Source of the DNA: Branchiostoma lanceolatum
Taxonomy: Eukaryota > Chordata > Leptocardii > Amphioxiformes > Branchiostomatidae
Direction: 5' to 3'
Assembly: GCF_035083965.1 (NCBI RefSeq)
Contig: NC_089723.1
Coordinates: 6,967,501 to 7,031,500, forward strand
Length of the DNA: 64,000 nt
The notes below the pieces were generated by a model. It ran no database searches and was not told the origin of the DNA. It saw only the letters and a list, made by a program, of their open reading frames with translations. The translations under genes were made by a program, and so were the position numbers. This document shows, piece after piece, positions 35,101-36,674 of the stretch; positions within the stretch are counted from its first letter, which is position 1; the number at the start of each line of letters is the position of its first letter.

Positions 35101-36674
35101 AGCCTCTGCTTCCCGACTGTTTAAGCCAGTGTCCTTCACAATTTGGTCTTTCCATCTCTTCGGTGGTCTTCCCCGGGGTCTGGGGGTGGCGAACTCCTGG
35201 CTGTAGGCTTTGTACACTAGTGTTTGTGGGAGTCGTCTTATGACGTGACCAAACCACCTCAGCCTTCTCGTCTGTACCATTTCCACAATGGTCTTTTTTG
35301 CCCCGAGTTTGGCTCTGATTTCAAGATTTGGTATGCGATCACGGAGCGTGATGCAGAGAATTGCCCGTAGGCATCTCATTTCGAAGGCTAATAGGAGAAG
35401 TTCATCTGTCTTTTTTAAGGTCCAAGTTTCACAAGCATATGTGGCTATGGGGGGTATAAGTGCCCGGAAGAGGCGCACTTTCAGGCATCTACTGATGTCC
35501 TTGCGGTTCCAAACTGTTTTTCTTAGTCGTCCATGCAAATAGTTATGCATGTTACGTATTTCACCATCACAAGTTACGTTATGTTGGAAACACATCGTGT
35601 TAGGACAATACCGGATGTTACTGCGTGGCAACAATGCCTATCTTAGTGTGTGTGGATGGTGTTCATCACCAAGGATGTTTCTACCTGTGTGTGAATGGTG
35701 TTCAGCTGCAAGAACATGTGTATGTACCTGTGTACAGATAGTGTTCAGCACCAGGGACAGGTCTGTTTGCCGGTATGTGGATAGTGTTCAGCACCAGGGA
35801 CAGGTCTGTTTGCCTGTGTGTGGATGGTGTTCAGCACCAAGGACAGGTCTGTTTGCCGGTGTGTTAATGGTGTTCAGCACCAGGGACAGGTCTGTTTGCC
35901 GGTATGTGAATGGTGTTAAGCACCAAGGACAGGTCTGTTTGCCTGTGTGTGGATGGTGTCCAGCACCGGTCTAGGTGTCTGTGTGTTGATGGTGTTTAGC
36001 ATCAGGGATAGGTCTAGGTGTCTGTGTGTTGATGGTGTTTAGCATCAGGGATAGGTCTAGGTGCATGTGTGTGGATGGTGTTTAGCATCAGGGATAGGTC
36101 TAGGTGCATGTGTGTGGATGGTGTTTGGCATCGGGGATAGGTCCAAGTAAGTTTGTTTGGATGGTGTTCAGCACCTTGGACACGTGTATGGATATGGGGG
36201 TATAAACGCTCGGCTTTTTCTTTAAAAAGTGTTGTAGTACTGTTCGCTATGCTCTGACGTTGTATTACTGTTGTTCTCCAGGTTGTGAAGATGCTAGCGT
36301 GTGTTGTGATACTGTTCGTTGTTGCTGGCCTGTTTTGTGGTGCTGTTCTCTGATGTTGTATCCCTGTTGTTCTCCAGGTTGTGAAGATGCTGGCGTGTGT
36401 TGTGATACTATTCGCCGTGCTGTGGATGCCGTACCGAGTCCTGGTCGTCTGCAACTCCTTCATCGACCCTCCCAACTACGACAAGTGGGTCATCCTGTTC
36501 TGCCGCCTGCCCATCTACATCAACAGCGCCTGCAACCCCGTCCTCTACAACGCCATGTCCGTCAAGTTCAGACGCGCCTTCAGCAAGCTGGCCAAGTGCT
36601 CAAAGAAGGACGACCTGTCCAGTATGAACTTCCAGTCGTCTATCAGAGCCGTGACGCGTTCCAACAGAGTCTGA
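22345..36674 (+). CDS. TRHR: Thyrotropin-releasing hormone receptor-like GPCR
   Basis: Coding exons 22345-23190 and 36378-36674 join in phase 0 (CAG|GTT) to give 380 aa, close to vertebrate TRH receptors (about 400). It is a class A, Gq-type peptide receptor expected in the plasma membrane. Seen: N-glycosylation sites at about N8, N26 and N32; TM1 near 51-77 with [11 protein letters not shown]2 [18 protein letters not shown]3 [13 protein letters not shown] followed by ERYIAICHP (ERY in place of DRY); TM6 [13 protein letters not shown]7 [13 protein letters not shown]. Known of the family: the TM3 Tyr and Asn, TM6 Tyr and TM7 Arg contact TRH; here Y and N of YLQYLGIN, Y of MPYR and R of LFCR are all present. 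The tail is short (about 40 aa), rich in Lys and Ser. The intron follows RKQ at the start of TM6. Odd: a duplicated acceptor lies 96 bp upstream of exon 2. It could be a TRHR paralogue rather than the direct orthologue. Confidence 0.93.
23217..23640 (+). repeat. Dispersed repeat family A, copy 3
   Basis: Starts 27 bp inside the receptor intron with AAAATGGAGGTATTGTTTTG. Its 3' part contains a 39-bp tandem unit (GTAGGTTTGGGCCCCCTAGC) repeated, at 23542 and 23581, with a partial earlier copy. Confidence 0.75.
23641..24439. other. Receptor intron, no recognisable element
   Basis: A 70-codon plus frame at 23753-23965 has no motif. Otherwise nothing is supported. Confidence 0.4.
24440..25556. repeat. 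Tandem array of about 220-230 bp units
   Basis: GGCAGGAAATTGAATC-type starts recur at about 24459, 24915, 25136 and 25367. Each is followed by TTAGAAATATTGGTACGGT and later AGAATCGACCAAACTTTTGC and TTCAATATGAGAAACCTGTT. The first interval is about twice the others, so one unit there has decayed. Confidence 0.85.
25746..25905. repeat. Relative of the P450-promoter foldback element
   Basis: Reads like the reverse complement of 62860-63000: GTCTATAGGTTCCAAATGTT, GTGTCAGAAAAGATAT and TGACCAAACATCCAACAGAA here match GTCTATAGCTTCCAAATGTT, GTGTCGGAAAAGATAT and TTACCAAACATCCAACAGAA there. The long outer arms of the 62.7 kb copy are not seen here. Confidence 0.8.
25985..26235. mobile_element. MITE family E, reversed partial copy
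   Basis: AAAGCAATATTAGGGCCC start, then TAGTCATTTCTAAACATGAT and TGTGATGTGAGAGCTCACT, the reverse of the order seen at 18111-18473. One end is missing. Confidence 0.7.
26236..27242. other. Receptor intron, no recognisable element
   Basis: Nothing supported beyond short frames. Confidence 0.4.
27243..27534. mobile_element. MITE family B, copy 4, with expanded GC-rich end
   Basis: CCCCCATTCCACTAGGACGG at the left, CTATCTAGTAGAATGGGGGC at the right, with TAAAGTCAAGGGTTACACAA inside. Near the right end (27420-27505) an 11-bp unit GCGGCGAGAGC has expanded to about seven copies; other members carry only one or two. Confidence 0.8.
27765..27930. repeat. Direct duplication of about 80 bp
   Basis: AAGTTGCCTTAATACTTTCC through GTCCTTGAAAGCCGTAAGTA occurs twice, back to back, with one base change (GAGGGCGTT versus GAGGACGTT). 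Confidence 0.85.
27940..28150 (-). repeat. SINE body fragment
   Basis: CTTCCACTGATCGTGACAGA and TGGACCACGGCTTTACGTCC match 8445-8600, but the tRNA head is absent here. Confidence 0.55.
28440..28692. mobile_element. MITE family C, copy 2
   Basis: CTAAAGCCCCCTCTCATTGG to GTGAGAGGGGGGGGCTTTAG, with the same CGCGGCACGCTGGCGGCGTC arms and TGAATGATATTCCCATTATA core as the other two copies. Confidence 0.85.
28693..29242. other. Receptor intron, no recognisable element
   Basis: Nothing supported. Confidence 0.35.
29243..29615. mobile_element. MITE family E, copy 3
   Basis: TTAAAGGCAACCAAAGCAAT to ATTGCTTCGGTTGCCTTTAA with the internal TTTTCAGTGAGTTCTCACAT. Both terminal repeats are intact. Confidence 0.85.
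29616..30109. other. Receptor intron, no recognisable element
   Basis: Nothing supported. Confidence 0.35.
30110..30540. mobile_element. MITE family E, copy 4, plus adjoining inverted scrap
   Basis: TTAAAGACAACGAAAGCAAT to GGGCCCTAATATTG and GTTTCCTTTAAG at about 30470. It is followed at 30480-30530 by an inverted fragment of the same family (TCACAATGTATAACGACGTC, then ATGATGCAAAAATTTGACG). Confidence 0.75.
31195..31430 (+). pseudogene. LINE reverse-transcriptase fragment
   Basis: The plus frame reads [20 protein letters not shown] and continues to a [13 protein letters not shown] block. The FADD box is the catalytic motif of non-LTR (CR1/L2/Jockey-like) reverse transcriptases. About 75 residues remain; the reading frame then runs into a minisatellite, so the long 302-codon frame is not a protein. 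Confidence 0.85.
31431..32052. repeat. 33-bp minisatellite, about 19 copies
   Basis: Unit GTGTGTGGATGGTGTTCAGC plus ACCAAGGACAGGA. Since 33 is a multiple of three, all plus frames and one minus frame stay open; none of those predicted proteins should be believed. It shares its core with the 43-bp array at 35640-36180. Confidence 0.95.
32349..34159 (+). CDS. Orphan two-exon membrane-protein gene nested in the receptor intron
   Basis: Exons 32349-32510 and 33212-34159 join in phase 0 (ACG|GTGAGT donor; TTTCTTTCAG|GTT acceptor) for 369 aa. I do not recognise a family. Visible: a very basic N-terminus ([16 protein letters not shown]); a hydrophobic segment at about 40-64 spanning the splice junction ([15 protein letters not shown] then [10 protein letters not shown]), probably a signal anchor; a long acidic, proline-rich stretch with PTDHVR occurring twice, at about 127 and 173; a charged helix-like block near 185-215; and a second hydrophobic segment near 331-350 ([20 protein letters not shown]) before a short tail. 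The intron sits in the middle of the first hydrophobic segment. The gene has the same orientation as its host, so it needs its own promoter. Expression is unknown; gene status is inferred from the open frame and clean junction. Confidence 0.65.
32526..32975. mobile_element. MITE in the intron of the nested gene
   Basis: Left end AAGTGCTGCGTATTGGTACT, right end AGGTACGCAGCACTA, with GTACCGGTAC palindromes near both ends. Flanks TCTACACT and TCTACACC suggest an 8-bp target duplication with one change, as in hAT elements. It fills about two thirds of the 701-bp intron. Confidence 0.65.
34160..34626. other. Downstream of nested gene, no element seen
   Basis: No clear AATAAA close to the nested stop; nothing else supported. 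Confidence 0.35.
34627..34862 (+). repeat. tRNA-derived SINE
   Basis: A-box-like TGGCGCAACGGCAGAGC at about 34636, B box GAGTTCGAATCC at about 34672, then a body with GGGTACCTGACTTCGGTTGG and TGGCGCCGAATGGCAGCCAC. The head folds poorly at the acceptor stem, so it is a SINE and not a tRNA gene. Confidence 0.85.
35014..35536 (-). pseudogene. 5'-truncated LINE with 12-bp target duplication
   Basis: The minus frame reads from [12 protein letters not shown] to [14 protein letters not shown] and a stop, with the conserved [17 protein letters not shown] and [12 protein letters not shown] blocks of a non-LTR retrotransposon C-terminus. Flanks AAATAGTTATGC occur at 35002-35013 and 35537-35548. The 3' end carries GTAGGCAGGTAGGCAGTAG. 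Same LINE as at 3201-3306. Confidence 0.9.
35640..36180. repeat. 43-bp minisatellite, about 12 copies
   Basis: GTGTTCAGCACCAGGGACAG recurs in 43-bp steps (35741, 35784, 35827, 35870). It then gives way to a diverged 43-bp form with GTTTAGCATCAGGGATAGGT. The core GTGTGTGGATGGTGTTCAGC equals that of the 33-bp array at 31431-32052. Confidence 0.9.
36219..36412 (+). repeat. 96-bp tandem duplication carrying the receptor's 3' splice site
   Basis: GTTGTTCTCCAGGTTGTGAA, then GATGCTAGCGTGTGTTGTGA, occurs with its acceptor at 36281|36282. It recurs 96 bp later at 36377|36378, the true exon 2 start. A weaker third trace (GTTGTAGTACTGTTCGCTAT) lies just upstream, at about 36230. Confidence 0.9.
36378..36674 (+). 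CDS. TRHR: TRH-receptor-like gene, coding exon 2 (TM6, TM7, tail)
   Basis: Starts [12 protein letters not shown] and ends TRSNRV, 98 codons plus stop, phase 0. Contains the WMPYR and NPVLY motifs. A family C MITE starts about 50 bp after the stop and would lie in the 3' UTR. Confidence 0.92.

Follow-up and report, generated by a model that had tools for sequence, protein, structure and literature searches.

A mirage-like duplication of an intron-exon boundary in an amphioxus TRH-receptor homologue

The receptor gene and its repeated acceptor

The window (the whole 64,000-nucleotide stretch of amphioxus DNA analysed here) carries on its plus strand the two coding exons of a rhodopsin-type receptor. 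Coding exon 1 (22345-23190), delimited by its translation and by direct reading of the donor, runs from the ATG to CAG/GTGTGT and matches Pfam 7tm_1 with an E-value of 1.3e-38. Coding exon 2 (36378-36674) begins at the authentic acceptor, ends with the stop codon TGA (36672-36674) and matches the C-terminal part of 7tm_1 (E 1.2e-08). Joined in phase 0 across an intron of 13.2 kb, the exons encode 380 amino acids. When this protein was compared with PDB chains, the TRH receptor was far the best match (E 3.8e-106, 358.5 bits), followed, among the best 60 of 195 matches, by neuromedin-U receptor 1 (E 1.6e-36, 129.5 bits). The TRH receptor alignment covers residues 48-369 of the 380 and includes matching SRKQV.KMLA, VVILFA.LWMPYR and NPV.YN stretches. 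Judged by this similarity, the amphioxus gene is a TRH-receptor homologue, as an earlier note on this DNA had proposed. Compared with the TRH receptor, the homologue has an intron between SRKQ and VVK, and it is this intron that bears the duplication described below. The TRHR2 intron described in the accessible part of PMC3151243 lies at the DRY motif, which is not the position of the amphioxus intron. TRH is not named in the portion of the amphioxus GPCR survey available to us (PMC2246102).

The end of this intron and the beginning of exon 2 are present twice. A 73-nt direct repeat occupies positions 36246-36318 (copy 1, the decoy) and 36342-36414 (copy 2, the authentic one), with a spacing of exactly 96 nt and 66/73 identical bases (90%). 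Copy 2 consists of the last 36 nt of the intron followed by the first 37 nt of the exon; the corresponding acceptor of copy 1 falls at 36281/36282. The intron parts match at 31/36 positions and the exon parts at 35/37, both exon differences being synonymous Leu codons. CCAG is found in both copies (36278-36281 and 36374-36377), and the strictly identical core measures 28 nt (36268-36295). Thus, the earlier description of the acceptor and exon start as repeated exactly 96 bp upstream is accurate for the spacing but not for the bases, which are not all identical. The repeat is not a product of chance, because 300 dinucleotide shuffles of 36183-36700 gave no non-overlapping 73-mer self-match better than 39.

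A decayed third trace further upstream, which had also been claimed, was recovered at 36229-36256: 22 of its 28 bases (79%) are identical to 36397-36424, a level reached by 0/300 shuffles. The spacer between the two copies (36319-36341), the end of which starts a weak fragment at 36332-36349 (78%), suggests that the array was built in more than one step. At the donor of exon 1 we found no duplication of this kind: within 22900-23700, no 30-mer from 23160-23220 had a match better than 17/30.

Downstream of the receptor stop, the first ATTAAA/AATAAA appears at 38436. A scan of 36282-38500 (six donor hexamers) gave donor-like GTAAGC at 36972 and GTATGT at 37120, both 3' of the stop, and the receptor 3' UTR may possibly contain an intron. 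Between the stop and the 38436 signal there are also two long inverted repeats, just 3' of the stop, at 36736-36972 (45-nt arms, 93% complementary) and 37141-37529 (103-nt arms, 94%). They may be MITE-like elements lying within or close to the 3' UTR.

Choice between the acceptors and the conceptual product

By their sequence features, both acceptors look usable. Copy 1 has a branch-point-like CTGAC at -24 and 13/18 pyrimidines, and copy 2 has CTGAT 24 nt upstream and 14/18 pyrimidines; in neither copy does an AG stand between the branch-like motif and the acceptor. The branch-point consensus is YTNAY, and the CTGAC of copy 1 is arguably the better branch motif. The predicted unpaired fraction of the tract is 0.62 for copy 2 vs 0.39 for copy 1, values from a single fold of 36120-36560 run without a control.

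These features alone are insufficient to settle the choice of acceptor, and the literature points both ways. According to the accessible part of PMC9225289, two acceptors separated by more than 12-20 nt are as a rule told apart when they are first recognised, each with its own pyrimidine tract and branch point, and not through AG choice in the second step. The argument that the decoy would be the first acceptor scanned is therefore not supported: at 96 nt the copies lie beyond the first-AG scanning rule, which is not relevant to acceptors typically chosen at first-step recognition. The same source reports that in human internal exons the upstream of two acceptors is favoured overall, which by analogy would count for the decoy being taken first. 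At comparable strengths, however, the preference weakens significantly if the introns on both sides are longer than 250 nt (PMC9225289); the receptor intron measures 13.2 kb. The repeat itself shows no sign of selection keeping the decoy, because its longest identical run (28 nt) is as expected with 7 mismatches placed at random (p about 0.22).

Splicing from 23190 to 36282 would keep phase 0 and yield a conceptual protein of 305 aa ending at a TGA at 36351-36353. The phase, the truncated reading and the stop had thus been correctly foreseen. One base, the A at 36353, belongs both to this TGA and to the branch-point-like CTGAT in front of the authentic acceptor. In the 305-aa product the WMP motif and everything beyond it, TM7 included, would be lost. 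The 11 new residues at its end are hydrophobic (Kyte-Doolittle mean of 2.64 over 22 residues vs 1.94 for the canonical 25-residue stretch), and a six-helix product is therefore conceivable from the translation. Of the predicted removal of most of TM6 and all of TM7, the loss of TM7 stands, but the part concerning TM6 has to be qualified in view of the hydrophobic tail. The decoy RNA might also be lost by NMD, since a 3'-UTR intron is possible (the donor-like hexamers given above). A dominant-negative action of the truncated receptor, also put forward in the earlier note, is possible as a conceptual translation but found no support: the available parts of two papers describe such junction duplications in amphioxus as leaving splicing undisturbed (PMC3087553, PMC3902484).

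Amphioxus mirages and the origin of the repeat

Tandem duplications of exon-intron boundaries, termed mirages, have been described in the amphioxus Adh, globin, troponin C and PGBD5 genes (PMC3087553, PMC3902484). As far as the accessible text of the first paper goes, BflGb6 units are 81-100% identical and number 6 or 3 depending on the haplotype, and results for Adh3 and RT-PCR suggest that regular splicing is undisturbed (PMC3087553). It also states that mirage repeats with AG/GT could serve as cryptic splice sites, and proposes that a repeat may in time become a real exon. The second paper, which added PGBD5, reports in the part available that the Adh and TnC mirages yield no aberrant mRNAs (PMC3902484). 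Correct splicing of PGBD5 is its authors' inference, and a lancelet PGBD5 gene model, which no transcript backs, treats the repeats as an exon (PMC3902484).

The TRH-receptor repeat shares the structural traits of this class: it is a tandem repeat across an intron-exon boundary, and the AG signal is present in both copies. The mirages of Adh3, TnC, BflGb6 and BflGb9 and the like repeats of PGBD5 are likewise boundary-spanning tandem duplications in which splice signals were copied. The Adh mirage is said to have been reported by Canestro and others in 2002. As in BflGb6 and PGBD5, the copies are imperfect; their identity of 90% falls within the BflGb6 range, and the third fragment, at 79%, lies slightly under it. 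Set against the published mirages, the receptor case consists of two good copies plus a trace, with 73 nt repeated at 96-nt spacing. The duplication, read from a single sequence, thus matches the mirage class in its structure. Among the open-licence papers searched, we found no report of a mirage or splice form of an amphioxus TRH receptor.

A second, independent mirage lies on the minus strand of the window at 50722-50877 (3 x 52 nt), where a U11-48K-like exon has its 5' splice site inside a 52-nt unit that is present three times. This exon (50842-50908, minus strand, edges inferred from splice motifs) follows another at 51465-51575 on the same strand, which encodes a CHHC zinc finger (Pfam zf-U11-48K, E 9.8e-07) and has an inferred end at a weak donor, GTCCGT. 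Joined, the two match the U11/U12 48K protein 8r7n_F with an E-value of 1.6e-09 (residues 2-51 of 60 aligned), which marks the gene as one of the minor-spliceosome kind. The repeated donors read G/GTAAGT, with the GT starting at 50841, 50789 and 50737. The first two units are identical and the third differs solely in its last base; since the units are so nearly identical, this mirage is probably recent. If the second donor were used, the exon would gain 52 nt and the reading frame would shift; splicing at the third would take in a stop codon in frame. With exon definition, minigenes that offered two equal, strong donors were spliced exclusively at the upstream one, as described in the available part of PMC9225289; it would correspond to the authentic donor of the U11-48K-like exon. 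The presence of this mirage speaks for a habit of the genome in general over a feature specific to the receptor.

We consider it highly probable that the receptor repeat is a mirage, i.e., a minisatellite-like tandem duplication of a boundary in which the authentic acceptor at 36378 is mainly spliced, with the upstream copy tolerated inside the intron. A segment containing the branch-point-like motif, the pyrimidine tract, the AG and 37 nt from the start of exon 2 would have been duplicated into the end of the intron, following or alongside an earlier event from which the third fragment remains. The copies would then have diverged by about 10 percent, with splicing going mainly to 36378 and the upstream copy staying intronic. 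Most likely, we infer, 36378 is mainly used and the copy is a neutral result of minisatellite turnover. Main use of 36378 is favoured because the published Adh and TnC mirages are reported to give no aberrant mRNAs (PMC3902484, in the part available) and because copy 2 has one more pyrimidine and the more open predicted tract; the mirage reading is favoured because a second mirage exists at a donor in another gene. The analogy with published splicing results is limited, as these reports, so far as accessible, consist of statements rather than data and cover genes other than the TRH receptor. Against main use of 36378 stand the plausibility of the upstream copy as an acceptor (CTGAC at -24, identical 28-nt core, no intervening AG), the human preference for upstream acceptors, though reduced for long introns (PMC9225289), and, in the accessible literature, the cryptic-site and exon proposals of PMC3087553 and the PGBD5 gene model with repeats as an exon.

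Occasional use of the decoy, giving an aberrant functionless mRNA as splicing noise, is compatible with the mirage reading, and we regard it as a realistic possibility, though one we would not bet on. A complete acceptor is present, and the potential of AG/GT repeats as cryptic splice sites was pointed out in PMC3087553; the published mirage cases, as far as available, report no aberrant mRNA.

It is very unlikely that the upstream acceptor is regularly used and that the resulting TRH receptor of 305 aa and six helices dimerises with the full receptor and so dampens it. The kept phase, the clean stop, the hydrophobic tail and the overall human preference for upstream acceptors (PMC9225289, accessible part) would fit such a role. 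A precedent exists in a related peptide GPCR: NMUR2S, a six-TM splice form of the neuromedin U receptor NMUR2 that has lost TM6, dampens NMU receptor signalling, according to the available part of PMC4552561. However, NMUR2S arises from exon skipping and not from a duplicated acceptor, and it is an experimentally shown protein with an 85-aa extracellular tail (PMC4552561), whereas the amphioxus product is conceptual only. The reported lack of splicing effects in mirages of other amphioxus genes, the random-like length of the identical core and the possible loss of the RNA by NMD also argue against this role.

We give hardly any credence to an assembly artefact, in which alleles or misassembled repeats were set in tandem. 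In its favour, according to the parts of the papers available, one draft-genome mirage looks aberrantly assembled (PMC3087553) and two assemblies disagree on the number of PGBD5 repeats (PMC3902484). Against it, the copies here differ at 7/73 positions and have a unique spacer between them, the decayed third trace points to a layered history, and the PGBD5 sequence was upheld by a second look at the Sanger data and by new Illumina data (PMC3902484). Just as improbable is a boundary-duplicating minisatellite that acts as a switch of the TRH receptor, with a decoy six-helix receptor whose stop codon comes from the branch point of the authentic acceptor; if it were true, an unstable copy number would make the proportions of decoy and true receptor differ between individuals or cells.

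Read as a mirage, the duplication in the TRH-receptor gene is a further case of a known oddity of amphioxus genes, and a peptide-hormone receptor and a U11-48K-like gene newly join the mirage genes named in the accessible parts of PMC3087553 and PMC3902484. Two mirages in 64 kb hint that such structures are common in the amphioxus genome and that its spliceosomes routinely cope with duplicated junctions. Near-identical neighbouring splice sites are natural experiments on splice-site choice, and mirage pairs are also natural experiments on intron gain by duplication, the model of PMC3087553 as set out in its available part.

Other repeats and coding signals in the window

An ungapped scan for tandem repeats (at least 34/40, offsets 25-600) returned 17 groups in the window. 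Two of them overlap an identified coding-exon boundary, a proportion that is no rate, as most of the window is without a gene model. A Pfam scan of 20 of the 68 stop-to-stop ORFs of at least 90 aa gave two matches at E ≤0.01, P33MONOX (E 0.0015) and p450 (E 0.00028), both under the curated cut-off. The three minus frames of 48001-57000 returned zf-U11-48K and, again weakly, P33MONOX; the three plus frames of 55001-64000 gave no match at 0.01.

At 58376-58470 there are two tandem 42-nt copies with TTTCAGTT(A/C)CAG acceptor-like motifs, in no coding context that we recognised. The receptor intron contains two minisatellites, at 31429-32047 and 35647-36182, which have the common core GTGTGTGGATGGTGTTCAGCACCAAGGACAGG and periods of 33 and 43. 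A derivation of the 43-nt minisatellite (35647-36182) from exon 2 was considered and rejected, as its local alignment score of 24 was reached by 27/500 unit shuffles. About 0.3 kb into the same intron, 3.1 copies of a 39-nt unit (23503-23622) start with GTAGGT and end with TTGCAG, and every unit junction resembles an acceptor adjoining a donor.
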